The notes beneath the pieces are model-generated. The model had not been told where the DNA came from. It made no database searches and saw nothing but the letters and a program-made list of their open reading frames with translations. The position numbers and the translations under genes are program-made. Positions 7,541 through 25,363 of a stretch of 44,409 nucleotides of DNA are shown here, in pieces. Origin of the DNA: Opitutus sp. GAS368 (GTDB lineage: Bacteria; Verrucomicrobiota; Verrucomicrobiia; Opitutales; Opitutaceae). The stretch spans positions 1-44,409 of the forward strand of contig CAMCHO010000016.1 of assembly GCA_945874455.1 (NCBI GenBank), written 5' to 3'. The number at the start of each line of letters is the position of its first letter. Position 1 is the stretch's first letter.

Positions 7541-8778
7541 TATTCCTTCTTCTTTTTCTTCTTCGCGCCGTCGCCCTTGGCTGCACCTTCGCCACCGGGA
7601 GAATGAGCCGCTTTCGCCGGATCATCGCTCACCACCGAAACCGCGCGGCCTTCGCGCAACCGGTCGACGCCTTCTAGGACGACGAGGTCGCCGGACTGCA
7701 GTCCTTTCGTAATCGACTGCTGTGCTCCGTCGGATGGCCCGAGGACAATGTCACGCACCGTGGCCTTGTTCTCAGCGTTCACGACGTAAACGTACGTGCC
7801 GCGCGAGCCATATTGCACGGCGACACTCGGGATCACCAGGGCGGCCTTCAACGTGCGTACGCGGAGGCGGACATTCACAAATTGATTCGGGAAAAGTTTC
7901 TCGTCGGCGTTAGCGAACTCCGCCTTGAGCCGAAGCGTGCCGGTCGCGAGGTCGATCTGGTTGTCCACAGTCTTCAGGCTGCCGGTGGCGAGCACCACAC
8001 CCTCGCTCCGGTCCCACGCCTCGACGACGAGTTGTTCGCCGGCGCGAAGCGGCTCGACGACTTTCTGCAGTTCCATCTCCGGAATCGTGAACATCACCGA
8101 AATCGGACGCGTCTGCGTGATCACGACCATGCCGCCCGCATCGCCAGCCCGAACGATATTGCCGGCGTCGACTTGGCGGAGCCCCAGCCGGCCAGCAATC
8201 GGAGCTTCGACTTTGGTATAGGCGAGTTGCCGCCGAGCATCTTCGACCTGCGCCTGCGCGGTCGCCAAGGCACCCTCGCGCTCCGCCACGAGGGCCTGCT
8301 GCGCCTCCAGTTGCTGCGGGGAAATGAGCGTCTGCGCATTGAGCACTTTGAAACGCTCCAAGTCGCTGCGTACGGTGCGAAGCTGCGATTCGCTCAACCG
8401 GAGTTGCCCTTCCATTTGCGTCAGCCGCAGCTGATAGGGCAGCGGATCGATTTCCGCGAGCAGCTGCCCCGCAGTCACCTCTTGGCCCTCTGAAAACGCG
8501 ACCCGCAACAACTGTCCGTCAACGCGGCTGCGCACCGTCACGATGTTGAGTGGTACCACCGTGCCGATGGCGCGCAAATGTACGGATAAGTCTCGGGATT
8601 GCGCCGCCTCGGCTTTCACCGGCACCGGCTGGGCATTGCTCTTACTGCTGCGAAAATAGCTTCCGCCGCCGGATTTCGGTGCCTCGGCGCGAAAGCCGAA
8701 ATACCAGACGCCTCCCGCGAAAACCAAGGCGACGGCACTATAGATAAACCAGCTGCGGGAAGATTGAGGGTGCGGCAT
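7540..8778 (-). CDS. mdtA: RND efflux periplasmic adaptor (membrane fusion protein), MdtA-like
   Basis: Adaptor of 412 aa linking the RND pump to an outer-membrane channel. An N-terminal hydrophobic anchor (residues about 10-29, [21 protein letters not shown]) is followed by the first lipoyl half ([20 protein letters not shown]), a coiled-coil hairpin (about 115-190), the second lipoyl half ([19 protein letters not shown]) and beta-barrel and membrane-proximal domains. The C-terminus is a low-complexity tail ending in a run of lysines. It is first in the mdtABC-like operon. The ATG at 8778 has no Shine-Dalgarno sequence; the leader is pyrimidine-rich (CCCACCTCCTTTCGAA). The gene lies 126 bp downstream of the OleB-like gene on the same strand, separated by a 9-bp hairpin. 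Confidence 0.92.
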
Positions 8779-8864
8779 TTCGAAAGGAGGTGGGATCGTC
8801 GGAGATCGTGGACAGTTGCCCGCCAGACGACCACGCAGGGGGCTGCGTTGCTACAAATTTGTTT

Positions 8865-8893
8865 CGCTCAGCGCGTTTCGCACCCGCTGAGCG
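8865..8893. repeat. 9-bp perfect inverted repeat between oleB-like gene and mdtA
   Basis: CGCTCAGCG at 8865-8873 and CGCTGAGCG at 8885-8893 are perfect reverse complements with an 11-base loop. On the minus strand the hairpin begins 11 bases after the stop of the OleB-like gene and is not followed by a T run. It is therefore not a classic intrinsic terminator; it may be a factor-dependent end or an mRNA-stabilising stem that separates the lipid cluster from the efflux operon. Confidence 0.5.
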
Positions 8894-8904
8894 GGGCGAC
8901 CCGA

Positions 8905-9798
8905 TCACGCGCCTCCGAGAAACGACGCGACGCGCGGCACCACTTCGTCCCGCGCGTCTTCGAGCACGTAGTGACCGGCATCAGCGAGGCGGTGCACTGC
9001 CGCTTGGGGCAGAACCTCGCGCCACCTCGCCAAAAACGAGTCGTTGAAACAAAAATCGCGTCCACCCCAGACGATCATCGCCGATCGGTCGCGGAAATGT
9101 CGCAACCCCTGCTCAACCTCGGCCAGAGCCGCCCAACTCCGATGCGCAGCGTCCAACGGGATGTCGCGCACAAACGCACTCACCGCGACGCGATTCGCCC
9201 AGGAATTATAGGGAAATAGCAATCCGGCCCGCTCGTTTTTTGTCAGCGCGCGCCGCTGCATCGACATCCACGTCGCCGGCCACGCAAAACCATTCAGGCC
9301 GCGCACCAAGAGCGGTCCGATCAACGGAGCCTTGCACAGCGCGATGCGGGCCGGGATGCGCGTCGACGCGAATGCCGCCGTATTCAACACCGTCACGCGC
9401 CCAATCAATCCCGGATGGCGCGCTGCGAAGCCGAACCCAATCGCGCCGCCCCAGTCGTGCACGACGAGATGCACGCGGCTCAGTTTCAGTGACGCCACCA
9501 GTGCTTCGACGTCGGCGATGCGGGTTGCCAGCGTGTAGTCGTAGTCTTCCGGCTTCTCGGAAAGTCCCATGCCGATGTGATCGGGCGCGATACAGCGCAT
9601 CGTCGGCGCGAGCGCTGCCACCAGTTTTCGATAGTAAAACGACCACGTCGGATTGCCGTGCACCATCAGCACCGCTTCGTCGCGCCGCGGCCCCTCGTCG
9701 ACGTAGCTCATCCGGGCACCGCTCGCCGTCACCAACGATTTCGGTGCGAACGGGTATTCGCCGGCGAGCCATGCGGGTATCTGGATCGTCGCTACCAT
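8905..9798 (-). CDS. oleB: alpha/beta hydrolase, OleB / haloalkane-dehalogenase-like
   Basis: 297-aa alpha/beta hydrolase of the haloalkane dehalogenase-like branch. Visible motifs are HGNPTWSF (47-54, oxyanion region), HDWGG with nucleophile Asp115, acid Asp248 (WGGRD) and catalytic His276 (AGHYVLEDA). An Asp nucleophile at about 114-115 is what I recall for OleB, the beta-lactone decarboxylase of olefin biosynthesis. The gene overlaps the OleA-like gene by 7 bp, which strongly supports an OleB role over a true dehalogenase. The start is ATG 9798; an upstream in-frame extension to 9894 lies inside the oleA-like gene, is Arg-rich and is rejected. OleC (beta-lactone synthetase) and OleD are not in the window, so the chemistry here is inferred. 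Confidence 0.82.
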   Translation of the reverse strand: MVATIQIPAWLAGEYPFAPKSLVTASGARMSYVDEGPRRDEAVLMVHGNPTWSFYYRKLVAALAPTMRCIAPDHIGMGLSEKPEDYDYTLATRIADVEALVASLKLSRVHLVVHDWGGAIGFGFAARHPGLIGRVTVLNTAAFASTRIPARIALCKAPLIGPLLVRGLNGFAWPATWMSMQRRALTKNERAGLLFPYNSWANRVAVSAFVRDIPLDAAHRSWAALAEVEQGLRHFRDRSAMIVWGGRDFCFNDSFLARWREVLPQAAVHRLADAGHYVLEDARDEVVPRVASFLGGA

Positions 9799-10817
9799 TC
9801 GAGAGCGAGCATCAGACAATTCAGACCGCTCCCGATACCCAGCAAGCCGACGCGGTGACCTTCCCGGACAGCGCCAGCGTCGACGGCGGCACACAACGTC
9901 GCGGGCAAGGCAACCGAGCCTGTGTTACCCAAGGTTTCAAAGGTCGAAAAATCTTTAGCCAGATCGAGGCCCAGGGTCTCATAGAGTTTTCGCCGATGGG
10001 TGCTGCCGACTTGATGGCAAATAAATCGATCAAACGACGCCCCCTGCTCGGCGCTAAAATCCCTCCACGTTGCTTGCGCGAGGCCCACGCCGGCGATCAA
10101 CAACTGCTCCGAATCCGTCTGCATCGCGAGCGCATCGGCGCCGTGGGTATCACCCTGGCAAAGCTCACTGTGCTGGGTCGCGGCGCGCGCGATACCACCG
10201 AGCAGACGATGCGCGCGGCCCTTCACGAGCGAGCGATGACACACCATCGCGGCCACCGCGCCCGAGCCAATGGTGAGATTGGCGAAATACGGTTTGATGT
10301 CGTTTCGCGAAAGCGGTTTTGCCAACAGCGTTTGCACCGTTTGCTCGACCAACGGTCGACCATTCTCACCCGAAACCACGAGCGCGCAGCGAATCTGGCC
10401 GGATTCGATCAGACCGGCCGCGACCGTCAGCGCATTGAGAAAACCGAGACACGCATTCGAGAGATCGAAAATCTGGGCGGTGGACGGAAGGCCTATTTTC
10501 CGATGCGCAAACGACGCCGTCGCCGGTTCCAACATGTCGCGACTCACCGCCGCGTGGACGAATAACTCGACGCGCTCCGCACCGAGCGCGGACTTCGCCA
10601 GCACCGCCCGTCCCGCCTGCGCACTGGCATCCGACGGACGCGTGCCGGTCGGCCACATCCGCCGCTCGCGGATGCCCGACATGAGTTCGAGCCGCCCGAC
10701 CGGCAGCTTGAGTCGCTCATAGAGCGGGCGGAGCCGCTCCTCGATCGCGGCGGAACTCCACACCTCTTCGGGCAACGCGACCGCCAACGACTCGATGCAG
10801 ACGTGTTCGAATTTCAT
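9792..10817 (-). CDS. oleA: OleA-like thiolase-fold condensing enzyme (KAS III superfamily)
   Basis: 341-aa thiolase-superfamily protein annotated as OleA-like: non-decarboxylative head-to-head condensation of two fatty acyl thioesters. The nucleophile is Cys123 in SNACLGF, with His268 (ICHQVGS) and Asn298 (LGNTGS) completing the triad. Glu97 lies 26 residues before the Cys, the same spacing as the catalytic Glu117/Cys143 pair I recall from Xanthomonas OleA, which ordinary FabH lacks. GSGAVA near 185-189 also fits. It lies 10 bp after the FabI-like gene and overlaps the OleB-like gene by 7 bp. The alternative is a generic FabH-like ketosynthase; the Glu spacing and the oleB neighbour argue for OleA. 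Confidence 0.82.
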   Translation of the reverse strand: MKFEHVCIESLAVALPEEVWSSAAIEERLRPLYERLKLPVGRLELMSGIRERRMWPTGTRPSDASAQAGRAVLAKSALGAERVELFVHAAVSRDMLEPATASFAHRKIGLPSTAQIFDLSNACLGFLNALTVAAGLIESGQIRCALVVSGENGRPLVEQTVQTLLAKPLSRNDIKPYFANLTIGSGAVAAMVCHRSLVKGRAHRLLGGIARAATQHSELCQGDTHGADALAMQTDSEQLLIAGVGLAQATWRDFSAEQGASFDRFICHQVGSTHRRKLYETLGLDLAKDFSTFETLGNTGSVALPATLCAAVDAGAVREGHRVGLLGIGSGLNCLMLALEW

Positions 10818-10827
10818 GCGGCGGCGC

Positions 10828-11640
10828 TCACTGCTCCATCCGCATCGCGAGCCGGATAATCTCTTTATCGAAGGTGTTCGCGCCCAGCCCCGCGTCGACC
10901 ACGAGCGTCGTGCCGTTGATTCCGCTGCTCCGCTCGCTTAGGAGAAACACCACGGAGTTGGCGACCTCTTGGGTTTCGAGGTTTTTTTTTCGAAAGGTGA
11001 GCTTCTCCGCATAGAGATAGCTTTCCAGATAGCCGGGAATGCCCGCCGACGCGCTGGTCTTCAGCGGCCCCGCGCCCACGGAGTTGAATCGCACTGCGGA
11101 ATCAGCACTGAACGATTTCGCCAGAAACCGCACGCTCGACTCCAAGGCGGCCTTGACCGGCCCCATGTAGCCGTAGTTGTCGGGCGTCACGAGCAGCGAC
11201 GAAATGCCGATCGTCACGACCGAAGCGGTCGGCGCGAGGTGCGGCTTGAAGGCCCGCGCCACCTCGACGAGGGAGAACGCGGACACCGCCGTAGCCTGCA
11301 AAAAATCGGCGCGCTTCGTCTCGTGAAACGGTTTGAAGCCCTCCGAATAATTCGCAAAAGCGATGGAGTGCACGATCCCGTGCAACGGCCCGTGACCGGC
11401 CGAGGCAATGTCCGCCGCGAGGCGCTCCGCCGCTCCGGGTTGCTCCACATCGCAAAGGAAAACCGGCTTTCCGGCCAGCAGGGTTTCCAACGACTTCTTC
11501 CGTGCCTCGGAACGTACACTATAAATCACGTGCGCGCCCTGCTCTTCGAGGGTCTTCGCGACCCACCAAGCGACGCTCTTGCGGTTCGCGACGCCGAACA
11601 CGAGAAACGTTTTCCCGGAAACGTGCAGAAAATCGCTCAT
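10828..11640 (-). CDS. FabI-like enoyl-ACP reductase (SDR fold), non-canonical active site
   Basis: 270-aa short-chain dehydrogenase of the FabI type. The nucleotide-binding segment [10 protein letters not shown], the HSIAFA stretch (91-96) and the catalytic Tyr156/Lys163 ([14 protein letters not shown]) align with E. coli FabI at the same residue numbers. The first FabI tyrosine (Tyr146 of E. coli) is replaced: [10 protein letters not shown] has Ile at 146. The start ATG at 11640 overlaps the FabZ-like stop as ATGA. Upstream in-frame extension into the fabZ-like gene is rejected. Expected role is NADH- or NADPH-dependent reduction of an enoyl-ACP in this cluster, or a modified reaction given the missing Tyr. 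It is probably not the housekeeping FabI, because it is embedded in an accessory cluster. Confidence 0.85.
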
Positions 11641-12080
11641 GCGGAAGGAGCCCCGTCGGGTGTTTTCCACGCCACGGTGAAGTCCACGCTCAGCACACGC
11701 TTGTCGCCGCACTTTACTTGACCGCTCATCATGGTGAACCCGCCCAGCGCCTCTTTGCGCTTCACCTCGATGGTGATCGTGTCGCCGGGATAGACCGGAT
11801 TGCGAAAACGCACGTCGCTGATTTTCGCGAGCAAGGGCACGCCATCCTGCGTCCCCTGCCCCGCCATCAAGCGAGCCATAAAAAGCGCACCCGTTTGAAA
11901 CACCGCTTCGCACAATAACACTCCGGGCGTGATCGGTGCGCCGGGGTAGTGCCCACGGTAAAAATCTTCGTCGGCGCGAAACGTTCGGCGCGCGACCAAT
12001 CCGTCGGCAGACTCGCTGACAATTTCGTCCACGAACAAAAAAGGTGGCCGGTGGGGAATGAGGTCGGTGACTTGAGACAT
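11637..12080 (-). CDS. FabZ-like 3-hydroxyacyl-ACP dehydratase
   Basis: 147-aa hot-dog-fold dehydratase. The N-terminal [14 protein letters not shown] and the catalytic segment [21 protein letters not shown] give His44 and Glu58, spaced 14 residues apart as in FabZ. The last third diverges and ends in a short polar tail. It starts 2 bp after the stop of the flavoprotein gene and ends in an ATGA overlap with the FabI-like gene, so the three are probably co-translated. It is expected to dehydrate 3-hydroxyacyl chains on the cluster's own ACP. A housekeeping fabZ is likely elsewhere in the genome; this is inference. Confidence 0.88.
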
Positions 12081-12082
12081 GG

Positions 12083-13537
12083 TCAGGTGGTGGCGACGGC
12101 GGCCGATTGCTTCATCTGGAAAATAGCCTTGTCGATCTTGTTGGCCGTGATGACGCCATAATTAATGGTGCCGAGCCAGCCTGACATAATAATTCCAACC
12201 GACCCGGCGTGGTAGAGGCCCGGAAGTTTTTCCGACAGTTCCATCGAAACTTTCAGGCCCTCGAACTTTGTGCCGAATGAGGTGCCGGAGAAATGCTGAG
12301 TGTAGCGCTCGATCGTCCGCGGCGTGGCGGCCTCCAGCCAATCGATCTTCGCCCGCACTCCGGGGATGTATTTCTCCAGCGCCACCAATGACTCCTCGAT
12401 CAACCGTTGCTTTTCCCGCTCGTAATCTTCGTCAGAGAGCTTCTTCCAGTCGGCATACTGGCCATTGAGAGAAACTACGACGGTGTAGCGGTCCGAACCC
12501 GGGCGCGTATCCGGGTAGTAGACAGAAAAAGTTCGGCTCGTGGTATGCAGGTCGGTCAGTTCCGTGCTACTGAACTTCGGATTCTCGGAGGTGAAAACCA
12601 GATCACCAATATGCGGAATGGTTTCGCCCTTGCGGATGCCGAAATAGACTTGGCACGAGCTGGAATTGATCCGGACGGCCTTGGCCTCGGCCACGTAGTC
12701 GGCAGGAAAATTTGCCTCCCCGCCCAGACGGAAAATCGTGTTCTTGATATTGGCGTTGGACAGCACGGCTTTCGCCCGAATCACGCGCCCGCTGGTGGCA
12801 ACGATGCCGCAGGCCACCTTTTGCCCAGCGCGCTCTTCCACCAAAATGCGCTCAACGAGCACCTTCTTGCGCACCTCCACGCCATTCTTTTTCAGCTCGG
12901 CCACCATCTTCTCAATCAAGAGGTCCGATCCACCGCGGAACGTATAGACGCCCGAACCCATAAAATTGGAGAAGACGATGCCGTAGGTGATGGCCGGATC
13001 GTCCAGCGTCGAGCCGTTGGCGTAGGCGATGGGTTCCATCAGGAGGCGTTTCACATCGTCACGCCCCGGGAAAAACCGCTCGAGCATCTCCCCGGTCGTC
13101 TCAGGGTTGTTGTCGTAGAAATTCATCGCCCGCAGGTAGTCGTAGAATTTCTCGACGTGCGCGCGGTCCAGGCCAAATTTCTCGACGAGGACCCGCGTGT
13201 AGTCATCCCGCGTGAAGGTGGTCCACACGTCCATCTGCGGATTGACGAACCGGATGTCCTTCAACGGTACGATCGAGTCCGATATCTCCTTCGTCCAATA
13301 CTTCCGACATGACTTGATCATCCCCACGGGAAATCCGTGCAGGGAAATATCGAAGATATGCCCGCCCTTGCGCGTGAACCACGTGGCGAGTCCGCCGAAC
13401 TGGTAGTGATGCTCGAGCAGCAACACGCGGTGGCCGGCCTTCGCGAGCACGTTAGCTCCCGTGAGGCCGCCTAAGCCGCTGCCGATGACAATCACATCAT
13501 ACTCGTCCGCGACACCTTTGAGCCAGTCGTAAGCCAT
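12083..13537 (-). CDS. Phytoene-desaturase-like FAD-dependent oxidoreductase 2
   Basis: 484-aa CrtI/CrtN-type flavoprotein. The FAD dinucleotide fold is at residues 14-41 ([17 protein letters not shown], ending [11 protein letters not shown]). The C-terminal FAD motif is in [19 protein letters not shown]. The start is ATG 13537 just before MAYDWLKG; an upstream GTG or TTG extension to 13576 is less likely. The leader is pyrimidine-rich and lacks Shine-Dalgarno. The gene sits 40 bp after the isomerase gene and 2 bp before the fabZ-like gene. No phytoene synthase is near, and the partners are fatty-acid enzymes, so the likely substrate is an acyl chain (perhaps ACP-bound) rather than a carotenoid. 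Possible reactions are desaturation, isomerisation or saturation; the sequence alone does not decide. Confidence 0.85.
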
Positions 13538-13577
13538 GGAGAGTCCAAAGTGAGTACGCTCCCGGCCCGAGCGCAAC

Positions 13578-14432
13578 TCAGAGTTTGAGCGCCCGCAGAT
13601 ATTTGAAGGAATCGGGGATGGATTTGAGCGGCATCACCGTCTCGTCCTCCAAGAAATAATGCTTCACGCCGATTTTATGCGCGGCATTCAGTACCTCGGC
13701 CCACTGGATCTGCCCTTCGCCCACCGCCACTTTGGCCGTGGCCGGGCTGCCACCGGTGTGCCCGCCGCGGGTGAAATCCTTGAGCATATCTTTGATGTGC
13801 AGCATCGACCAACGGTCGGGGTACTTGGCCAACAGCTTGGCCGGATCGAGCCCGGTGATGTAAACCCAATAAACATCCATCTGATAGGTCACGAGATCAG
13901 CCTTCGTTTCCCGCACCAAAATATCGAACATCGTCTCGCCGTTACCTGCGGCCGTCGGACGAAACTCGAGCCCGTGAGGATGATAGCCAAAGCGCAGACC
14001 TTCTTTTTTGCAGGCCGCGCCCCACTCGTTGAACTTCGCGGCCATAGCATGGGCCATCGCCTCGGAGAATGGCTTGTCCTTGCTCACCGGTGGATACGGC
14101 ACGACCACGAACTTCAGCCCCAACTCCTTCGCGTCGCGGATGACAGCGGCGATGTCCTTGTCGAACAGAGCGTAGCCGAAATGACCGCTGACCGGAACAA
14201 AACCGCGCGATTTCAACTCCGCCGCGAACAGCGCCGGCGTGAGGCTACCGGTGCCTGCAACCTCGACCTCCTTGATGCCGTAAGACTTGGCGATATCGAG
14301 CGCCCCGGTGGTGCTCTCCTTGGTTTGTGCGCGAAGGCTGTAAAGTTGGAGACCTAGATGGTCACGGAAATCGGCTGCGTGCAGCGCAGCGGCGATGAGG
14401 GGCAACAGAGCGAAGCGCAGGAGTTTTTTCAT
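13578..14432 (-). CDS. Sugar phosphate isomerase/epimerase-like protein with signal peptide
   Basis: 284-aa xylose-isomerase-like TIM barrel (AP endonuclease 2 superfamily). The N-terminus [20 protein letters not shown] is a typical signal peptide, cleaved near residue 20, so the protein is exported. Conserved elements include [24 protein letters not shown] and MLHIKDM, which carry likely metal ligands (His, Asp, Glu). The start at ATG 14432 is set by the signal peptide; the longer open frame to 14798 is rejected. It lies between two flavoprotein genes, 29 bp from one and 40 bp from the other, an odd place for an exported sugar enzyme. The family is common in Verrucomicrobia and Planctomycetes; the substrate is unknown. 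Confidence 0.85.
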
Positions 14433-14461
14433 AAGGAAAGAAAACCGATGTCGGCCGCCGC

Positions 14462-15892
14462 TCAGCCTTTTTGCAAGATGTGATAATTGGCCATCGAAAT
14501 ACCGCTCAGCATGGCCCCGACAATTCCGAGAAACCCTTGGTCGGTCCCACAGAGATAGAGATTGTCGAGCGACGTGCGACCCTGACGGTGTTTCACGGTC
14601 GCCCCGTAAATCGCGCCTCCGAGGTGCCCCGTGAATTTCGTGATCGTGCGAGGCGTGAACATATCGGTCGTGAGCGTTGCCGCCGCCAGCGCATCGTCGC
14701 TCACGAGCGGAGGCAAAAAGCGCCGGGCGCTGCGCTGCACCTCGGCGAACCAACGGAGCTTGTCCGCTTGGTAGTCGGCTTCGGGCTGGCTGGCCCAACC
14801 ATCATAGTTGGCGAGGCAGGTAACCCGGAAAATGCCCTCGGGCAGGACGCGGTCGGCGCCGTAATCAAAGTTATTGGGAATGCAGATGACGCCGCTGCGA
14901 GGATCGACCTGCTCGGTCGGCCGCACGTAATCGAACCGCGAGGAATCATTAAAAAAAACGATCGTATCGCTCCCCCAGCCCAGTCCCGCCGGTTGCCGAT
15001 CGAGAATGCTGATCGTCTCTACGAACGAGAGCGTGGGCGCAGCCGTCGTCGGCTCGCCAGCGCTCGCCGCTACCAGGCGATCGGTCTCCGGCGCGCCAAT
15101 CGAAGAGATGACATGGTCGGCGGTAATCTCTTCACCGCTGTCGAGGATAACCGCGCTCGCGCGGCCCGCGTGGGCGCTGATCTTTTTCACCCCGCATTTC
15201 ATCCGCCGCTCGCCCCCAGCCGCACGATATTTGGCCAAAAGCACGCGGAGCACGACGCGGACCCCTTCCAAAGGTCGCGCAAATCCTTCGAGGAAGAGCG
15301 CCTTGAACATGATCACGAACTGGCCGAACTCCATATCCCGTTCGGTCGCGCTCCCATAATACATCAGCGGGCAAAACAACATGTCTTCCAAGAGCGGATC
15401 GGAAATGTGCCGACGCACCGCTTCACGAGCCGACATCGGCGCGGCGTCGAGCGACACATCATTGAAGGTCCGCACGGCGGTCACGAGTCTCCGGAATCCG
15501 TCGGCTTGCGCAGGAAACGCCGCCACCACTTCGCTCTCAAAGACCGCAAAATCGTTGGTGAAGCGCAGGGAACATTCGCCGCGCGGGCCGAACGCGATCC
15601 GCGACTGCTTCTGTTCGCACAGGGCGAACTCATCGCGTTCAATGCGGAGCTGGCGCAGCAGTTTTCCCAGCGGCGTGCCTTTGACCCTAGGTCGCACAAA
15701 ATTGGTCATCGCGTGGAGGCCCACGTCGAATTTTCGACCCGCGATACTGTAAAAACTATTCAGCCCGCCGACGGCGTTGTGCCGCTCGAAGATGCAGACC
15801 TTCTTCCCGAAGTGCGCGAGGCGAATGCCAGCGGCGAGGCCTGACATGCCCGCTCCAATGATGGCCACGTCGTAGTGGGAGCGGGTGTTCAT
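14462..15892 (-). CDS. Phytoene-desaturase-like FAD-dependent oxidoreductase 1
   Basis: 476-aa CrtI-like flavoprotein. The FAD dinucleotide fold is at residues 8-43 (VAIIGAGMSGLAAGIRL, ending CIFERHNAVGG). The C-terminal FAD motif is LDNLYLCGTDQGFLGIVGA. It is only distantly similar to the second flavoprotein of the cluster, so the two probably perform different steps rather than being a recent duplicate. The start ATG at 15892 lies 10 bases after the T-tract of a terminator-like hairpin; no room remains for a separate promoter downstream of the hairpin. The expected substrate is a cluster-specific acyl chain or polyene; this is inference from neighbours. Confidence 0.85.
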   Translation of the reverse strand: MNTRSHYDVAIIGAGMSGLAAGIRLAHFGKKVCIFERHNAVGGLNSFYSIAGRKFDVGLHAMTNFVRPRVKGTPLGKLLRQLRIERDEFALCEQKQSRIAFGPRGECSLRFTNDFAVFESEVVAAFPAQADGFRRLVTAVRTFNDVSLDAAPMSAREAVRRHISDPLLEDMLFCPLMYYGSATERDMEFGQFVIMFKALFLEGFARPLEGVRVVLRVLLAKYRAAGGERRMKCGVKKISAHAGRASAVILDSGEEITADHVISSIGAPETDRLVAASAGEPTTAAPTLSFVETISILDRQPAGLGWGSDTIVFFNDSSRFDYVRPTEQVDPRSGVICIPNNFDYGADRVLPEGIFRVTCLANYDGWASQPEADYQADKLRWFAEVQRSARRFLPPLVSDDALAAATLTTDMFTPRTITKFTGHLGGAIYGATVKHRQGRTSLDNLYLCGTDQGFLGIVGAMLSGISMANYHILQKG

Positions 15893-15902
15893 GGGCGGCT
15901 AC

Positions 15903-15928
15903 AAAAAAGGCCGGGAATCGTCCCGGCC
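15903..15928 (-). terminator. Intrinsic-terminator-like hairpin between ACP and flavoprotein 1
   Basis: An 8-bp perfect GC-rich stem (GGCCGGGA / TCCCGGCC at 15909-15928, loop of 4) is followed on the minus strand by six T (15908-15903). It lies 25 bp after the ACP stop and immediately before the flavoprotein start. It could end a ketosynthase-ACP message, or act as a partial terminator letting less transcription into the flavoprotein genes. Confidence 0.8.
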
Positions 15929-15953
15929 GAAATATTCGCTCGGCTACTGGCCC

Positions 15954-16217
15954 TCAGCTCTTGCCTGTCAGGGCGTCGAACTTCGGCGTAAGATAATCCG
16001 CGCAGCTGTCGAGGCTCGCGAGCTGTTGATAATCCTTCTCAGGGACCTCAATGCCGTGACGTTTACGGAGCTCCATCACGATATCCAAAAAGTCCATACT
16101 ATCGAGCTGCATCTGGTCGCGCAGCCGCACCTCGGGCTTCACGTTGCTCAAGTCCTCGTCGGGGGCGATGTCGGCAATAATATCGAGCACCACCTGCTTG
16201 CATTCGTCTTTGGTCAT
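15954..16217 (-). CDS. Acyl carrier protein (cluster-specific)
   Basis: 87-aa acidic helical protein with the phosphopantetheine attachment Ser40 in LDSMDFLDIV. This matches the ACP motif D-S-(L/M)-D, here with Met after Ser and Phe after the second Asp. Length is normal for a type II ACP. It follows the ketosynthase gene by 14 bp, and a terminator-like hairpin follows it. It probably carries the growing chain for the ketosynthase, FabZ-like and FabI-like enzymes of the cluster. The pairing with its own KAS suggests an accessory pathway, separate from the housekeeping AcpP, which is not in the window. A few extra residues follow the last helix. Confidence 0.92.
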   Translation of the reverse strand: MTKDECKQVVLDIIADIAPDEDLSNVKPEVRLRDQMQLDSMDFLDIVMELRKRHGIEVPEKDYQQLASLDSCADYLTPKFDALTGKS

Positions 16218-16231
16218 AGTCGGAGCGGGGA

Positions 16232-17470
16232 TTAGGGGACAAACCGTTTAACAATCAACGCGGAATTTATCCCCAACATTCCGAAAGAATTATTAAGGAT
16301 GGTGTCTACTTTCGCAACCGCCCGGGGCTGATTAAGCACCAAGCCCGGCAGCGCACAGAGCGGATCGAGGTCGTCGACGTTGATCGTCGGATGGACAATC
16401 AGGTCGTCGAAGGACTGCAAGTTACCCGCCAGTTCGAGCGCGCCGGCCGCGCCCATGCAGTGGCCAATGTAACCCTTGGTATTGTTGATGAAGGTGTCGG
16501 GGCAGCCTTCGCCGAAGACCGCACGGATCGCTTCGCACTCCTGAATGTCTCCGAGCGGCGTGGCGGTGGCGTGAGTGTTAACAATGTGGATATCGCGCGG
16601 GACGAGGTCGGCTCGGCTGATCGCCGCGCGCACGCATTCAGCCTGGCGCGTGGGATTGGGCAGCACGTAGTCGCTCGCATCACTGTTCACGTGGTAGCCG
16701 GCGATTTCCCCGTAGATTTTCGCACCACGCGCTTGGGCATCGTCCAAACGCTCCAGCGTGTAGAGAGCGCCACCCTCAGAGATCACAATACCGTTGCGGG
16801 CCTTGTCGAAGGGCCGCGATGCCTTGAGCGGGTCGGCGTGCGTCGCGAGGGCGTTCTGGGATTTGAAGCCAGCGAAAATCCCAAACGTGTGGATGCTCTC
16901 GCTCACGCCACCGCAAATCGCGAGGTCCACCTCGCCCAAACGCAACATCTGCGTGGCGTGGATCAGCCCCATGTTTCCTGCCGCACACGCAGCCCCGATC
17001 GTGTAGGCGGGGCCCGTCACGCCGAGATTGAGCGACGCCTCACCGGCGGGGTTGTTCGCGACAGTCCGGGGGTTGTGATAATGCGACCAAAACTTCGTGT
17101 CGTAGTTAAACTTCGAGATGTTGTAGATTTCGTTCTCGGTCTCGACGTTGCCGTGCTCCGTGCAGCCAATGTAAATACCCACACGGTCCTTCGCCACCGC
17201 CTCCCAAATGAGCCCACTGTCCGCCAGCGCCTCGCGCGCGCAGTAAATCGAAATACTCCCGGCCCGCGTGCCGACCCGCACCTCTTTTTTCGTCTGGTAC
17301 TTCTGGGGGTTGTAATCGCACACGCCCGCCAGCTGCGTGCCCATGTAGCGAATCTCGCGGCGTTGAATTCCGGCCACCCCCGCGAGCAGATTAGCCCGGA
17401 ATTCGGCGAGCGAATTACCGTTGGGAGCGGTCAGACCGACGCCTGTGATGACGATGCGCGAGAGCTTCAT
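16232..17470 (-). CDS. Beta-ketoacyl-ACP synthase, FabF-like, variant motifs
   Basis: 412-aa thiolase-fold condensing enzyme of the KAS I/II type, which extends ACP-bound chains with malonyl-ACP. The active-site Cys162 lies in IGAACAAGNMG; His300 is in NTHATATPLGD and Lys332/His337 in TKGYIGHCMGAAGALE. The first His motif is altered from the common N-T/A-H-G-T-S/T to THATAT, which marks a divergent subfamily. The ATG start at 17470 gives MKLSRIVITGVG; an upstream TTG at 17497 is less likely. It is first gene of the minus-strand cluster and divergent from galE with 62 bp between, so the promoter must lie there or inside galE. It may be a dedicated synthase for an unusual lipid. Confidence 0.88.
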   Translation of the reverse strand: MKLSRIVITGVGLTAPNGNSLAEFRANLLAGVAGIQRREIRYMGTQLAGVCDYNPQKYQTKKEVRVGTRAGSISIYCAREALADSGLIWEAVAKDRVGIYIGCTEHGNVETENEIYNISKFNYDTKFWSHYHNPRTVANNPAGEASLNLGVTGPAYTIGAACAAGNMGLIHATQMLRLGEVDLAICGGVSESIHTFGIFAGFKSQNALATHADPLKASRPFDKARNGIVISEGGALYTLERLDDAQARGAKIYGEIAGYHVNSDASDYVLPNPTRQAECVRAAISRADLVPRDIHIVNTHATATPLGDIQECEAIRAVFGEGCPDTFINNTKGYIGHCMGAAGALELAGNLQSFDDLIVHPTINVDDLDPLCALPGLVLNQPRAVAKVDTILNNSFGMLGINSALIVKRFVP

Positions 17471-17532
17471 TAAGGTGGAAGGGAAATCGCTAGCCAACCT
17501 CCGCCCGAAAGCAATACAACCCTCCTTTCTCT
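17471..17532. promoter_or_regulatory. Divergent intergenic region, lipid cluster / galE
   Basis: 62 bp separate the ketosynthase start (minus) from galE (plus) and must contain or lie next to both promoters. I see no convincing -35/-10 pair. The galE leader (CCCTCCTTTCTCT before ATG) is pyrimidine-rich, with no Shine-Dalgarno. Confidence 0.4.
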
Positions 17533-18525
17533 ATGAACGTTCTCGTCGTCGGAGGCGCCGGTTACATCGGCAGTCATTGTGTTCGCCAACTCGCAGCGGC
17601 CGGTCACCGCCCCGTGGTGCTCGACAATTTCGTCTACGGCCACCGCGCAGCCCTCGCGCCCAATGTGACCGTGTACGACGCAAACTTAGGTGACGAACTC
17701 GCCGTCAAACAGATCCTCGTCTCCGAGCACATCGAAGCGGTCATGCACTTCGCGGCCTTCTGCTACGTCGGCGAATCCGTCACCGACCCCATCAAATACT
17801 ACCTCAACAACAGCGCGGCCACCCTGCACCTGCTCAACGCGATGCTCGCTGTGGGCGTGAAGAAATTCATCTTCTCCTCGACGTGCGCGACCTTTGGCGT
17901 GCCGGCGACGCTGCCCATCCACGAGAACCTTCCGCAAGTTCCCATTAACCCCTATGGCCAAACCAAGCTCGACATCGAAATTGCCCTCAAAGCCCTCGCC
18001 CCGGCGACCGGCCTCAGTTTCGCGGTCTTCCGCTATTTTAATGCCGCCGGCGCATCCGAGGACGGCTCGATCGGCGAGGATCATCACCCGGAGACGCACC
18101 TCATCCCCGTGGCCATCGACGTCGCGACGGGCAAGCGCCCGCATCTGGAACTCTACGGCACCGACTACCCAACCCCTGATGGCACGTGCCTTCGCGACTA
18201 CGTGCATGTTGATGACTTGAGCCGCGCCCACATCGCAGCTTTCGACACATTGTCAGCCCCCGGCACGCAGCTCTTCTACAATCTCGGCACCGGTAAACCA
18301 ACCTCCAACCGTGAAGTCATCCGCGCCGTCGAGAACATCGTCGGCCGGCCCGTCAAGGTCATCGCACAGCCTCGTCGCCCCGGCGATCCCCCTGCCCTCT
18401 ATGCCGACTCCACGAAAGCCCGGCGTGAGCTCAATTGGAACGTAAAGTTCGGTGACATCGAATCGATTGTCGCCACGGCCTGGAAATGGCACTCAGCCCA
18501 TCCCCGAGGCTACGCCGATCGATGA
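17533..18525 (+). CDS. galE: UDP-glucose 4-epimerase
   Basis: 330-aa extended SDR that interconverts UDP-glucose and UDP-galactose for the Leloir pathway and surface polysaccharides. The NAD motif GGAGYIGSH (7-15) is followed by the catalytic Tyr141 and Lys145 (NPYGQTK) and the SSTCATFG stretch (115-122), where Thr replaces the more usual Ser. RYFNAAGA and LRDYVHVDDL are typical of GalE. Length is normal. The stop overlaps the next gene as ATGA (18522-18525), so galE and the BtpA-family gene are probably co-translated. UDP-GlcNAc specificity cannot be excluded. Confidence 0.93.
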   Translation: MNVLVVGGAGYIGSHCVRQLAAAGHRPVVLDNFVYGHRAALAPNVTVYDANLGDELAVKQILVSEHIEAVMHFAAFCYVGESVTDPIKYYLNNSAATLHLLNAMLAVGVKKFIFSSTCATFGVPATLPIHENLPQVPINPYGQTKLDIEIALKALAPATGLSFAVFRYFNAAGASEDGSIGEDHHPETHLIPVAIDVATGKRPHLELYGTDYPTPDGTCLRDYVHVDDLSRAHIAAFDTLSAPGTQLFYNLGTGKPTSNREVIRAVENIVGRPVKVIAQPRRPGDPPALYADSTKARRELNWNVKFGDIESIVATAWKWHSAHPRGYADR

Positions 18526-19331
18526 AGCTCTTCGCTACCGCCAAGCCAGTCGTCGCCATGATCCATCTGGGCGCTCTGCCCGGCACGCCCGCGTGCCGCC
18601 GCTCGTTACGCGAGATCGAGACGCAGGCGTTACGAGAGGCCAAACTCTACCGCGAGGCTGGCGTGCACGGCCTCATGTTGGAAAACATGCACGACACGCC
18701 CTACCTCCGCGGACACGTCGGACCCGAAATCGTCGCGGCCATCGCCATCGTCGCCCGTGCCGTCAAGGACGCAGCTGGCTTGCCCTGTGGCCTACAAATC
18801 CTCGCCGCCGCCAATACCGAGGCCATCGCCGTCGCCCATGCCGCCGGCCTAGATTTTATACGGGCCGAGGGGTTCGCCTTCGCGCACGTCGCCGACGAAG
18901 GGATCATCCAGTCGTCGGCCGCCGAGCTGCTCCGCTACCGTCGCGCCATCGGCGCCGACCACGTGCAAGTGTGGGCGGACGTAAAAAAGAAGCACAGCTC
19001 GCACGCGATCACCGCCGACGTAGCCATCGGGGAGACCGCGCACGCCGTCGAGTTCATGCGCGGTGATGCCGTGATCGTGACTGGCGCTGTCACGGGAGAC
19101 GCCCCGCTGCCCGCCGACGTCCACGCAGTGAAACAGGCTACCCGGCTCCCGGTCTATCTCGGCTCCGGTGTGACTGCGGAAAATATCGGCACGTTCCTCG
19201 GCGAAGCCGACGGATTTATCGTGGGATCAGAATTCAAAACCGGCGGCCATTGGTCGGGAAAGGTCGATGCGAAACGCGTGGGGCGTTTCATGTCCGCAGT
19301 CTTCGCCAACCAAACGCCGGCTCGGAAGTAG
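18522..19331 (+). CDS. BtpA family protein
   Basis: 269-aa protein of the BtpA/SgcQ family, a TIM-barrel-type fold. Characteristic segments are VVAMIHLGALPGTP near the N-terminus, GLMLENMHDTPY, EGFAFAHVADEG, VWADVKKKHSSH and VYLGSGVTAENI. BtpA was named for photosystem I stability in cyanobacteria, but the family is widespread in non-phototrophs and its reaction is not settled, so no function is assigned. The start at ATG 18522 is chosen over an upstream GTG or TTG because it begins the conserved region and forms an ATGA overlap with galE. Confidence 0.88.
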   Translation: MKLFATAKPVVAMIHLGALPGTPACRRSLREIETQALREAKLYREAGVHGLMLENMHDTPYLRGHVGPEIVAAIAIVARAVKDAAGLPCGLQILAAANTEAIAVAHAAGLDFIRAEGFAFAHVADEGIIQSSAAELLRYRRAIGADHVQVWADVKKKHSSHAITADVAIGETAHAVEFMRGDAVIVTGAVTGDAPLPADVHAVKQATRLPVYLGSGVTAENIGTFLGEADGFIVGSEFKTGGHWSGKVDAKRVGRFMSAVFANQTPARK

Positions 19332-19408
19332 GGCGAACGTCAGTCTGCCTCAGTCCGTTTGCCTTCGTGCGAGCACTTCAGGCCGAAACAGCGGGCTGAC
19401 GTCCGCCC
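19331..19408. repeat. Inverted repeat between convergent btpA-like gene and lepB
   Basis: The first arm (19331-19343, GGGCGAACGTCAG) pairs with CTGACGTCCGCCC (19396-19408) over 13 bp with one mismatch, enclosing about 52 bases. It starts at the last base of the BtpA-family stop codon and may be a transcription-end structure shared by the convergent genes. There is no T run, so a terminator role is uncertain. Confidence 0.35.
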
Positions 19409-19419
19409 TCAGCCCCACC

Positions 19420-20757
19420 TCAGCGGGCCGGGCCCCAGTGACTGGTGAACGGGAAGTAGATAAACAGCGGCCGGCCGACGACATCCTTGCCCGGCACGTA
19501 CCCCCAGTAACGGCCGTCCGCGCTGTTGCCGGAATTATCACCTAGCGCGAAAAACTGCCCCGGAGGGACCTTGGCTTTTTCGCCCAGCGCCAGCAGGCCG
19601 AACGGTTGGTAGCCACCGTATTTTCCGCTCTGCTCATTGTTCCCGCGAAAAGCCTCTGAACCCTCGATCGGTCGCCCATTGCGAAGCAAGACGCCCGTAC
19701 CACCCGATTTTACCACCGTTGACCCATCAGACGTGGTCTTACCGCTCACGATTTCAAGTTCGTCCCCAGGCGTTCCGACGAGACGCTTAATGTAATATTG
19801 GTCTCCATACGTATCCGCGATGCCCTTGATGTTACCGGTGCGAAAAACAAAACCCTGTCCGGCATCCGGCCGCACGAAATGGTAGCTCATCCGATCGACG
19901 AATAACTGGTCGCCAGTCAACTCATCGAACGACAAAAAGCGCTCTCCAGCGCGCACGAAGCGGCCGGTGCGGATACACCGGACGTTTTCTCCATCGACAT
20001 TCCGCACCTCGAATTGGCCCGCGCGCAGCTTTTTTTCAACCTCAGCGTTGAAGCTCTGGGTCGTGAACTTTTTGCCCGGCGAAACCAGCGCTTCGGAAAC
20101 AACCCAGTCCATGTCAAAATCCAGCGGCAACCGCACTTTCACCGGCTTGTCGCCGACAAAGAGCGTGTACTCGCGCAAGTCGGTCGGAATCACCAGCCAG
20201 GATCGTCCCGAGACGATGCGCGCGCGCACGGCCCCGCGGCTCTGCCCACCAAATACCGGCACCAACACTTCGCCCTCCATCGGGGCATCCAGACGATGAG
20301 GCCAGGCGCCAAAGAGGACGGCCCGCGCCGCCACCGCCGCCGACGAGGGTTCGTCAGCCGGCTTCATAAACACCTCGGGCGTCATCCCGTTGTAGGTCGG
20401 CCACATCGAGTTCGTCGGGATCTTGAAGGGCTGCACAAAATACGTGCGGATCCCAAGAATCACAATCGCCGCCACGAGGAAGAATTCGACATTTTCCACG
20501 AGCGCGCTCTTGGGATAAATAGCCCCACCGGTGCGGCGCAGCACTTCCTCGAGTGCTTCAATTTCAAGTCTCAGCTTTTCCGCCCCGACCTTGTCCTTGA
20601 GCAGCGCCCGGAGCGTCGCGATATGGGCCTGCAATTCGCCCACTAGGGGAGCGGCGAGGATATCGCGACGGAAGTGGTAAACGCGATCAGCGACCTCGAG
20701 CCAATTCGTCGCGTTCTCCCGCATTTTCTTTTCCTGAGACTGAAATAGGCCGAACAT
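19420..20757 (-). CDS. lepB: Signal peptidase I with enlarged catalytic domain
   Basis: 445-aa membrane serine protease that removes signal peptides. A hydrophobic segment (about 89-105) precedes box B with catalytic Ser117 (IPTNSMWPTY). The general-base Lys324 is in YYIKRLVGTPGDE and box E is GDNSGNSADGRYWG. The Ser-Lys distance is about 207 residues, against about 55 in E. coli (S90/K145 by memory). A large domain is therefore inserted, in addition to a soluble N-terminal coiled region of about 80 residues. The start ATG 20757 lies 13 bp after the lepA stop; an in-frame ATG at 20802 would overlap lepA and is less likely. Order lepA-lepB is the same as in E. coli. Confidence 0.9.
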   Translation of the reverse strand: MFGLFQSQEKKMRENATNWLEVADRVYHFRRDILAAPLVGELQAHIATLRALLKDKVGAEKLRLEIEALEEVLRRTGGAIYPKSALVENVEFFLVAAIVILGIRTYFVQPFKIPTNSMWPTYNGMTPEVFMKPADEPSSAAVAARAVLFGAWPHRLDAPMEGEVLVPVFGGQSRGAVRARIVSGRSWLVIPTDLREYTLFVGDKPVKVRLPLDFDMDWVVSEALVSPGKKFTTQSFNAEVEKKLRAGQFEVRNVDGENVRCIRTGRFVRAGERFLSFDELTGDQLFVDRMSYHFVRPDAGQGFVFRTGNIKGIADTYGDQYYIKRLVGTPGDELEIVSGKTTSDGSTVVKSGGTGVLLRNGRPIEGSEAFRGNNEQSGKYGGYQPFGLLALGEKAKVPPGQFFALGDNSGNSADGRYWGYVPGKDVVGRPLFIYFPFTSHWGPAR

Positions 20758-20770
20758 GGCTGCGAATCGC

Positions 20771-22567
20771 TTAGTTGTTTTGGAGCACCTTGATAAAGGC
20801 ATCCGGTGGGATGGATACCTTGCCGATTTGTTTCATCTTCTTTTTGCCCTCTTTCTGTTTGTCGAGGAGCTTGCGCTTACGGCTGATGTCGCCGCCGTAG
20901 CACTTTGAAGTGACGTCCTTCCGCATTTCCTTCACGTTATCGCGGGCGATGACTTTACCGCCAATGGCTGCCTGAATCGCGACCTTGAACATCTGCGGAG
21001 GGATGATTTCAGCGAGCTTCTCGCACAATTGACGCCCGCGGCTATCGGCCTTGTCGCGATGCACGATACAGGAAAAGGCATCGACCGGGTCGCCGTTGAT
21101 CATGATGTCCATCTTCACCAGGTCGGCCACCATGTAGTCGCCGAGTTCATAATCCATCGAGCCATAGCCGTGAGTGATGCTCTTTAAGCGGTCGTTGAAA
21201 TCGACGAGAATTTCGTTGAGCGGCAGCGAGCACTTCAGCATCACGCGGTTCATGTCCAACGTGTCGGTGTGGTCGCAGATACCGCGCTTTTCCATGATCA
21301 ACGCGAGGATATCGCCCATCGAATCGTTGGGCAAAATGATCTGCGCGCGAATCGTGGGTTCCTTGATCTCGATGATGGTGCCGGGGTCCGGCATGTTAAC
21401 CGGATTATCGACTTCGATCAGGTCGCCGCCGTGCTTGATCACATGGTAAATAACACTTGGATACGTCGAAATGATCTCCACGTCGTGCTCGCGACGGATG
21501 CGCTCTTGGATGATCTCCATGTGGAGGAGACCGAGGAAGCCACAACGGAAACCAAAGCCGAGCGCCAGCGAGCTTTCCGAAGCGTAAACGAAGGCCGCAT
21601 CGTTCAGACGCAACCGCCCGAGCGCGGCCTTCAGTTTCTCGTAGTCGTCGCTCTCGAGCGGATACAGACCGCAAAAAACCAGCGGGCGCACTTCTTTGTA
21701 GCCGGGCAGCATGTCCGTCGCCGGCCGGCTTGCGATCGTGATGGTGTCGCCGGTTTTTACGTCAGCGGTGTTCTTGATACTCGAGACGATGTAGCCCACA
21801 TCGCCGGCACCCAGCGAAGGGATCTTCTCCATCTTGGGCATAAAGACGCCCACTTCCTTAACCTCGGCCTTCTGGCCCGTGCTCATCAGCATCATCATAT
21901 CGCCGGCCTTGATCGCGCCGGAAAAGACCCGCACGTAGGCGATGCAGCCGCGATAAGAGTCGTAAAGCGAATCGAACACCAGCGCGCGCGTTTGTGGATA
22001 TTCCTGCCAGCGGGGTTCCGGCACGCGGGCCACGACGGCTTCGAGAATATCAATGATGCCGATGCCTGACTTGCCGCTCGCGAGGATCGCCTCCTCGGCG
22101 GGAATGGTCAGAATATCCTCCAACTGACGCGTGCAGAGCTCGAGATTCGCACTGGGCAAGTCGATCTTGTTGATGACCGGGATGACTTTGAGCTTTTGGC
22201 CGAAAGCCAAGTGGGCGTTGGCGACCGTCTGCGCCTCGACGCCCTGCGCCGCATCGATCAACAGCACCGCACCTTCACACGCCGCGAGTGAGCGCGAGAC
22301 CTCGTAGGAAAAATCCACGTGGCCCGGCGTGTCCATCAGGTTCAGTTTGTAGTCCTGCCCGTCCTTCGCGCGGTAGGTCATCGTGACCGGGTGCGACTTG
22401 ATGGTGATGCCGCGCTCTCGCTCGAGATCCATCGAGTCGAGATGCTGCGCCGTCATGGAGCGCATCGCCACGGTGTTCGTGTGCTCGAGCAACCGGTCGG
22501 AGAGCGTGGTTTTTCCGTGATCGACGTGGGCGATGATGCAGAAATTGCGGGTGTTTTTGGCGGACAT
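20771..22567 (-). CDS. lepA: Elongation factor 4 (LepA)
   Basis: 598-aa ribosome-associated GTPase, the standard length. GTPase motifs are AHVDHGKTT (G1), DTPGH (G3) and NKIDLP (G4). The LepA-specific C-terminal domain is complete through KKKMKQIGKVSIP. The start ATG at 22567 lies 3 bp after the fabD stop, so fabD, lepA and lepB form a likely operon on the minus strand. Confidence 0.97.
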   Translation of the reverse strand: MSAKNTRNFCIIAHVDHGKTTLSDRLLEHTNTVAMRSMTAQHLDSMDLERERGITIKSHPVTMTYRAKDGQDYKLNLMDTPGHVDFSYEVSRSLAACEGAVLLIDAAQGVEAQTVANAHLAFGQKLKVIPVINKIDLPSANLELCTRQLEDILTIPAEEAILASGKSGIGIIDILEAVVARVPEPRWQEYPQTRALVFDSLYDSYRGCIAYVRVFSGAIKAGDMMMLMSTGQKAEVKEVGVFMPKMEKIPSLGAGDVGYIVSSIKNTADVKTGDTITIASRPATDMLPGYKEVRPLVFCGLYPLESDDYEKLKAALGRLRLNDAAFVYASESSLALGFGFRCGFLGLLHMEIIQERIRREHDVEIISTYPSVIYHVIKHGGDLIEVDNPVNMPDPGTIIEIKEPTIRAQIILPNDSMGDILALIMEKRGICDHTDTLDMNRVMLKCSLPLNEILVDFNDRLKSITHGYGSMDYELGDYMVADLVKMDIMINGDPVDAFSCIVHRDKADSRGRQLCEKLAEIIPPQMFKVAIQAAIGGKVIARDNVKEMRKDVTSKCYGGDISRKRKLLDKQKEGKKKMKQIGKVSIPPDAFIKVLQNN

Positions 22568-22570
22568 CGT

Positions 22571-23488
22571 TCAGGCGGCGGTGGTCAGATCGGTAAATTC
22601 AGAAAAGCTCTTCACGCTCCACGTTTTTTCGGTGCGGCGCGCGAGTCCGGCGAGGACTCCGCCCGGCCCGAACTCCCAGAATTCTGTCACACCCGCCGCG
22701 GCGGCACTGCGCATACAATCTTCCCAGAGTACCGACGAAACGACTTGTTTCACGAGCGCGGCCTTGATCGCAGCAGGATCGCGAACCGTCTGGCCCGTCG
22801 TGTTCGCGAACACGGTGAAGCGCGGCGCAGCGAACGGGATCGATTCGAGATACGCCGCGAAGGCCACGCGCGCCGGCTCCATCAGGCGCGAATGGTAGGC
22901 ACCGGCGACGACGAGCGGGATGACCTTTTTCATGCCATGAGCTTTTGCTCCGATCACCGCCGCCTCGATCTTCGCCTTCTCTCCAGAGACGACGATCTGG
23001 CCGGGCGCGTTGAAATTAGCGGCCTCGATGTCGAATTCCTTGCACAGATCGGCGATTCTCCCCCGGTCCTCCCCGATGATCGCGGCCATTCCACCCGTCG
23101 TTTGCTCGCACGCCAGCTGCATGAGCCGACCACGCTCTGCCACGATACGCACGCCCGTCGCAAAATCGAACACCCCCGCCACGCAGTAAGCCGTGACTTC
23201 ACCGAGGCTCAGGCCGAGCGCAAATTGGGGTTCGCCGGACGGCAGTTTCCCCTGCTCGCGGAGCGCGGCCACGAGGGCTAGCCCATGGACGAAAAGAGCC
23301 GGCTGACACACCTTTGTCTGGGTCAGATCGACCTCCGGTCCCTCAAAGCTCACCTTGGCCAAGTCCCAACCAAGCACACGGCCGGCTTCCTCGTAAAGCG
23401 CCCGCGCGGCAGCCGACTGAGCAAACAGCGATTTGCCCATGCCAACCTTTTGGGAGCCCTGTCCCGCAAATAAAAATGCCAGTGCCAT
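22571..23488 (-). CDS. fabD: Malonyl-CoA:ACP transacylase
   Basis: 305-aa FabD that loads malonyl groups on ACP for fatty-acid synthesis. Visible are GQGSQ (9-13), the nucleophile Ser94 in GLSLGEVTA, Arg119 (ERGRLMQ) and His199 (GAYHSRLM). The nucleophile elbow reads G-L-S-L-G instead of the common G-H-S-L-G; the base sequence is unambiguous (CTG for Leu). I believe similar GLSLGE elbows occur in some Chlamydiae and relatives, but cannot check. It is first in the fabD-lepA-lepB run; upstream is a decayed pilT-like pseudogene on the same strand. Confidence 0.94.
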   Translation of the reverse strand: MALAFLFAGQGSQKVGMGKSLFAQSAAARALYEEAGRVLGWDLAKVSFEGPEVDLTQTKVCQPALFVHGLALVAALREQGKLPSGEPQFALGLSLGEVTAYCVAGVFDFATGVRIVAERGRLMQLACEQTTGGMAAIIGEDRGRIADLCKEFDIEAANFNAPGQIVVSGEKAKIEAAVIGAKAHGMKKVIPLVVAGAYHSRLMEPARVAFAAYLESIPFAAPRFTVFANTTGQTVRDPAAIKAALVKQVVSSVLWEDCMRSAAAAGVTEFWEFGPGGVLAGLARRTEKTWSVKSFSEFTDLTTAA

Positions 23489-23536
23489 GATAGGAACTCG
23501 CGAGACAATCGCCCGCCCTCTCGGAATCCAAGCCCT

Positions 23537-24395: not shown

Positions 24396-24464
24396 GGGTA
24401 AAAAAGCGTTGCGGATTCCGTATTTCGCCGTGCTCTGTTCCGCACGGCAACACTGCCCGCTCCC

Positions 24465-25352: not shown

Positions 25353-25363
25353 TTTCACCGGCT

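Follow-up and report, generated by a model that had tools for sequence, protein, structure and literature searches.

Why does a terminator-like hairpin stand 10 nt before a start codon, between two same-strand genes of one conserved cluster? The question arises in a window of 44,409 nt (the whole stretch of DNA that was analysed), where the hairpin separates the gene of an acyl carrier protein (ACP) from that of a first flavoprotein (flavoprotein 1). A preliminary description had placed it at 15903-15928 and had suggested that it either sets an expression ratio by partial termination or acts as an attenuator. These coordinates are correct, and the strand, left unstated there, is minus; the perfect 8-bp stem, the six T and the distance of 10 nt to the flavoprotein 1 ATG are likewise real.

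The hairpin and its gene cluster

The stem comprises seven G-C pairs and one A-T pair, with the arms GGCCGGGA and TCCCGGCC and the loop CGAT (15928-15909, minus strand), and is followed by TTTTTT (15908-15903, minus strand). A GC-rich hairpin and then a T tract are thus found on the coding strand. In isolation the hairpin folds with an energy of -16.0 kcal/mol, and its stem is predicted with a probability of 0.957 at this locus. The wider 106-nt region has a fold z of -1.82, with 10 of 200 shuffles folding equally well; as it beats its shuffles only moderately, what stands out is the hairpin alone. An in-frame TAG 7-9 nt upstream of the flavoprotein 1 ATG (15892) excludes an earlier start of this gene. 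Inspection by eye of the 10-nt spacer in front of the ATG found no Shine-Dalgarno-like or -10-like stretch. A repeat element was considered and rejected, the hairpin pattern having one other genomic place at up to two mismatches.

The surrounding genes are listed in Table 1. Divergent from KAS, and ahead of it, lies galE (above the TIGR01179 cut-off). Of 20 long stretches from relatives, most share the order galE, KAS, ACP, flavoprotein 1, flavoprotein 2, FabZ, FabI, KAS III and hydrolase, interrupted after flavoprotein 1 by inserts that differ in length; some of the 20 stop early, and one (L172) lacks KAS and ACP at the cluster. The closest solved chains to KAS III, PDB 3row and 3s21 and their relatives, are what we take to be OleA. 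Taken together, the OleA-like protein, the hydrolase and the two CrtI-like flavoproteins hint at a pathway for long-chain, perhaps polyunsaturated, hydrocarbons. The OleA-like and hydrolase genes occupy 8905-10817 at the cluster end. Elsewhere in the genome two OleD-like pieces were seen, on contigs C93 and C256, each at a contig end and below the family cut-off; weak matches to this family also occur in all 14 control genomes.

Table 1. Positions, strands and assignments of the features around the terminator, in window coordinates.
Feature	Positions	Strand	Basis
galE/KAS divergent gap (62 nt) with conserved block TTGTATTGC...TGGCTAGC, presumed promoter region	17471..17532		sequence comparison
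FabF-like beta-ketoacyl synthase (KAS), first of unit	16232..17470	-	PF00109/PF02801; TIGR03150 below cut-off
Acyl carrier protein (ACP)	15954..16217	-	PF00550
Spacer from ACP stop to hairpin, 25 nt	15929..15953	-	sequence
Intrinsic terminator	15903..15928	-	8-bp stem, loop CGAT, six T; position and build conserved
Spacer from terminator to flavoprotein 1 start, 10 nt	15893..15902	-	sequence and aligned genus members
Flavoprotein 1, amine-oxidase/CrtI-like, first gene past terminator	14462..15892	-	PF01593
Xylose-isomerase-like TIM-barrel protein (AP_endonuc_2)	13578..14432	-	PF01261
Flavoprotein 2, amine-oxidase/CrtI-like	12083..13534	-	PF01593
FabZ-like dehydratase	11637..12080	-	PF07977
FabI-like enoyl reductase	10828..11640	-	PF13561
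KAS III, OleA-like	9792..10817	-	NF006720 (PRK09258) above cut-off; nearest PDB chains 3row, 3s21
Alpha/beta hydrolase, haloalkane-dehalogenase-like; putatively OleB-like by position	8905..9795	-	PF00561

A loose terminator match means little in this DNA, because such a scan of 8000-26000 returned 26 terminator-like sites versus 19.4 (sd 4.8) in shuffles. For comparison with other terminators, 444 kb of the own genome were sampled (20 stretches of 20 kb and the window; GC 62.4%), in which a simple script based on codon usage called 354 genes. A looser energy scan of this sample gave 195 matches, which we regard mostly as noise because 150 of them lie inside genes; one weaker hairpin among them is closer to a start (L044, 7 nt) and does not stand behind a same-strand gene. 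Under a strict rule (perfect stem of at least 7, at least 5 T), 10 sites were found in the 444 kb versus a mean of 3.0 in three Markov simulations, eight of them no more than 100 nt past a same-strand stop. Three of the strict sites have a same-strand gene next, and among these the ACP-flavoprotein terminator is the nearest to a start.

Strong post-stop hairpins (-13 or lower) number ten in the own genome, including that behind ACP. Six precede an opposite-strand gene, two of these six being a single window hairpin read on either strand, and four precede a same-strand gene. The ACP-flavoprotein terminator has the same build and strength as these strong post-stop and end terminators. Such strength favors an alternative in which it is the complete terminator of a KAS-ACP unit, with a flavoprotein 1 promoter that overlaps the hairpin or T tract and yields a leaderless or very short-leader mRNA. 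We consider this alternative possible, though rather unlikely, and return to it below.

Conservation at a single junction

Flavoprotein 1 is present in 35 of 38 genomes in a search of relatives and in 141 of 150 in a family search, the own genome being included in both. From the 141 matching family genomes, 100 were added to those already in the set, and those left out were mostly distant genera and split matches. This gave 131 flavoprotein loci, of which 21 without ACP in the stretch were set aside (L025 and L082 are truncated; the 19 genomes behind the rest were analysed separately). There remained 110 junctions, including 102 from the family (Opitutaceae/Opitutae, 37 genera).

The preliminary description had named absence of the hairpin from syntenic relatives as one observation that would speak against it. 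Under the family rule (fold energy -11 or lower, 14-50 nt past the ACP stop), a terminator is present at 75 of the 102 family junctions, in 29 of 37 genera and with differing stems, and absent from 27, these being counts over related genomes and not independent events. A looser rule finds a hairpin with a T tract at 77 of the 102. Across all 110 junctions, the strict junction rule (-13 or lower, 14-50 nt past the stop) is matched at 74 versus a mean of 1.5 in 20 dinucleotide shuffles, and a loose rule for hairpin and T tract at 79 versus 17.8. Conservation at 74 junctions versus 1.5 in shuffles settles that the terminator is real. Its position is kept as well, with a median of 25 nt past the ACP stop (middle half 23-28).

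Each of the eight stem positions is seen as G-C, as C-G and as A-T or T-A, in matches that were required to pair and are no independent test of pairing; the terminator therefore retains its structure while the sequence of its stem changes. It follows a stop codon, and across the family the T tract is kept together with the hairpin. Judged from these sequences, the hairpin after ACP qualifies as a true intrinsic (Rho-independent) terminator. In 25 of the 75 family terminators, from 11 genera, no more than 30 nt separate the T tract from the start codon. In the own genus the terminator is found in nine of nine members and the short spacing in eight; the exception (L008) carries a 60-nt palindrome between terminator and flavoprotein 1 start.

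The gaps of the 20 long syntenic stretches and of the window were scanned over up to 200 nt each. At the ACP-flavoprotein 1 junction a terminator was found in 19 of 20 cases (absent in L168; L172 has no ACP there), versus none in 20 at the KAS-ACP junction and a single weak match (L161, -9.3) among the 117 other junctions and cluster ends. Behind the hydrolase, the last cluster gene, none was found in 16 stretches, and since the cluster end is thus also empty, the lack of matches at other junctions says little on where transcripts end. The terminator has same-strand genes of a single conserved cluster on both sides and is tied to one particular junction, as is expected of an operon-internal terminator.

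Beyond the family the picture is mixed. In a first outgroup set of eight junctions, five are 19-40 nt long and carry no terminator, a long gap (L020) has none either, and two (L026 and L030) have matches. A second set of 32 loci, 31 of them with ACP, yielded six matches, four within 50 nt of the stop. In the sister family f11 (L199-L221) a different, sequence-conserved hairpin, CACAGGC...GCCTGTG followed by TTTCGTTGT or similar, was observed at 18 of 30 loci by a motif search over whole loci on both strands; it lies about 25-45 nt past the ACP stop in the junctions inspected, and its motif was found in none of 120 own-family loci. The f11 hairpin has a poor T tract, mostly failing the T-tract rule, and may do the same job as the terminator or protect an RNA end. 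The latter function could be extended to our locus, where a longer transcript would be cleaved and the stable hairpin behind ACP would mainly stabilise the 3' end of the resulting KAS-ACP mRNA; the T-poor f11 hairpin is in line with this. Protection alone, however, needs no T tract, and the family keeps that tract with its hairpin, which makes this explanation improbable to us.

The 19 family genomes analysed separately (L174-L192) do not have ACP near and ahead of flavoprotein 1. ACP lies 1-3 kb upstream in five of them (G098, G109, G145, G161 and G147). In G094 the distance is 11 kb, and the remaining genomes have ACP far off or on a different contig. KAS adjoins ACP in 18 of the 19, galE accompanies both in 17, and a terminator stands behind ACP in seven. 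Judging by gene order, KAS and ACP probably form a separate unit in these genomes, where flavoprotein 1 is probably expressed by other means. The terminator may thus simply end a two-gene unit, since KAS and ACP stay together in 18 of 19 genomes and the terminator occurs in seven without a nearby flavoprotein 1.

Sequences on either side of the terminator

Ahead of KAS, TGGCTAG is found exactly in 17 of 20 loci within the block TTGTATTGC...TGGCTAGC, which is kept across genera and, in its two-part form, has a single occurrence in the own genome. Sequence comparison suggests that this block in the gap at 17471-17532 is likely a promoter or a regulator site. Between terminator and flavoprotein start, GGCTAG was found in none of 79 segments, and no conserved block was found there across relatives. 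A promoter scan likewise returned no promoter-like minus-strand site between 16288 and 15893, with a scan and matrix that are weak for this phylum: even ahead of KAS, the E. coli-type sigma-70 matrix did not separate real (4.59) from shuffled (4.64) sequence. That the hairpin lies too close to the start for a downstream promoter, as had been proposed, is reasonable given the 10-nt spacer; a promoter that overlaps the terminator is possible, however, and the matrix missed even the presumed KAS promoter.

These observations bear on the complete terminator with a hidden promoter. It has room for a promoter in many relatives, where the gap between terminator and flavoprotein start has a median of 52 nt, and it fits the strength shared with end terminators and the separate KAS-ACP units nearly as well as partial termination does. 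Against it stand the spacer of 10 nt here and the missing block behind the terminator. It is this missing block, together with the short spacing in 11 genera, that tips the balance to partial termination.

Some of the gaps behind the terminator are wide. Of 29 gaps of 60-200 nt, 16 fold far below shuffled energy (z < -3, versus mononucleotide shuffles, a cut chosen after a first palindrome measure had failed), in the shape of long palindrome inserts; the other 13 are not explained in this way. That first measure was useless (23 of 29 versus 21.0 in shuffles). A second, pair-based criterion was matched by 17 of 29 versus 9.86 in shuffles, and once the palindrome is subtracted, a median of 21 nt is left in these 17 gaps. 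Long palindromes of several sequence kinds were seen directly past the terminator in many relatives (L008, L055, L062, L068, L073, L095, L104, L112 and others), as if mobile palindromic elements were inserting there. The idea that short-spaced terminators have weaker T tracts was dropped, the leading T run (4.68 versus 5.31) differing too little.

A conditional attenuator, in which termination is turned on and off by a metabolite, a protein or the ribosome's behaviour at the ACP stop, would suit a site between two genes of one pathway, and has nothing direct in its favor. A tRNA is the sole Rfam match in the window, and no known aptamer family was found. No competing anti-terminator fold was predicted in 69 of the 75 family loci, where the terminator stem itself is the predicted fold with a mean pair probability of at least 0.8, computed with 100 nt of upstream context; the probability is low in L090, L112 and L111 and below 0.8 in L101, L104 and L115. 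No conserved sequence was noticed by eye in the 25 nt that separate the ACP stop from the hairpin. We therefore rejected a riboswitch or attenuator on the grounds of the Rfam result and the 69 predicted stems; control by a metabolite or factor, the second suggestion of the preliminary description, is unsupported and appears very improbable.

Probable partial termination and its precedents

We posit that the hairpin is an operon-internal, partly efficient terminator, and put the probability of this reading at about 0.62 on the evidence of sequence comparison. Transcription would begin ahead of KAS and pass through KAS and ACP, a set fraction of polymerases would stop behind ACP, and those that read through would supply the mRNA for flavoprotein 1 and for the enzymes after it. 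The outcome would be more mRNA for KAS and ACP than for the later enzymes, and the hairpin could also provide a protected 3' end for the short mRNA. A carrier protein is usually needed in excess, which fits more KAS and ACP mRNA. Three points of this reading are inferred: in the cell some polymerases escape termination, flavoprotein mRNA stems mainly from this read-through, and selection maintains the resulting ratio. The expression ratio set by partial termination, as first suggested, is the best supported reading, to which conservation at one junction and the missing block behind it have been added; the interpretation as a whole is partly supported.

Operon-internal terminators are easily dismissed as noise. 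Here one is kept in 29 of the 37 sampled genera despite changing stems, and the other junctions of the cluster are almost without terminators. The locus thereby offers a natural terminator series for the study of protein ratios in a lipid pathway, in a phylum for which, to our knowledge, there is little transcript data. More speculatively, and in our view with only a slim chance of being right, the junction could hold a family-wide selected set-point, at which terminators persist or form anew with different stems, an unrelated hairpin standing behind ACP in the sister family. The ratio of carrier protein to desaturase-like enzyme, and hence the acyl product, would then be tuned by termination strength and would perhaps respond to growth state.

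A limited search of open papers, by titles and the openings of abstracts, found no description of the ACP-flavoprotein junction. Ratio-setting terminators in operons are a kind already known; the site and its conservation are new. The terminator resembles a canonical intrinsic terminator in its 8-bp GC stem, short loop and six T, 25 nt past a stop codon, but differs in that the next same-strand gene begins only 10 nt past the T tract. The cluster in turn resembles the FASII clusters for ladderanes and polyunsaturated hydrocarbons, in which FabF-type synthases and phytoene-desaturase-like flavoproteins occur in fatty-acid gene clusters (PMC2649909). Here, in contrast, OleA-like and hydrolase genes follow and the product is a putative one, suggested by gene families; the portions of that paper drawn on here do not treat terminators.

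The closest precedent comes from ABC-importer operons of cellulolytic Clostridia, whose internal terminators have measured efficiencies of 20.7-96.1% (PMC9045158). Two tested terminators with more than five U stopped more than 90%, yet the downstream mRNA reached 9 and 21% of the upstream mRNA (PMC9045158). Most of the clostridial terminators are U-poor, whereas ours has a full six-T tract; their efficiencies were measured, while ours is presumed to be partly efficient; and the present case concerns a lipid operon of another phylum, with ACP in place of a substrate-binding protein. In the sections of that paper used for this comparison, as at our locus, an anti-terminator is not seen, and both systems share a single hairpin with a T-rich tail, placed after the first, abundantly needed gene or genes (PMC9045158).
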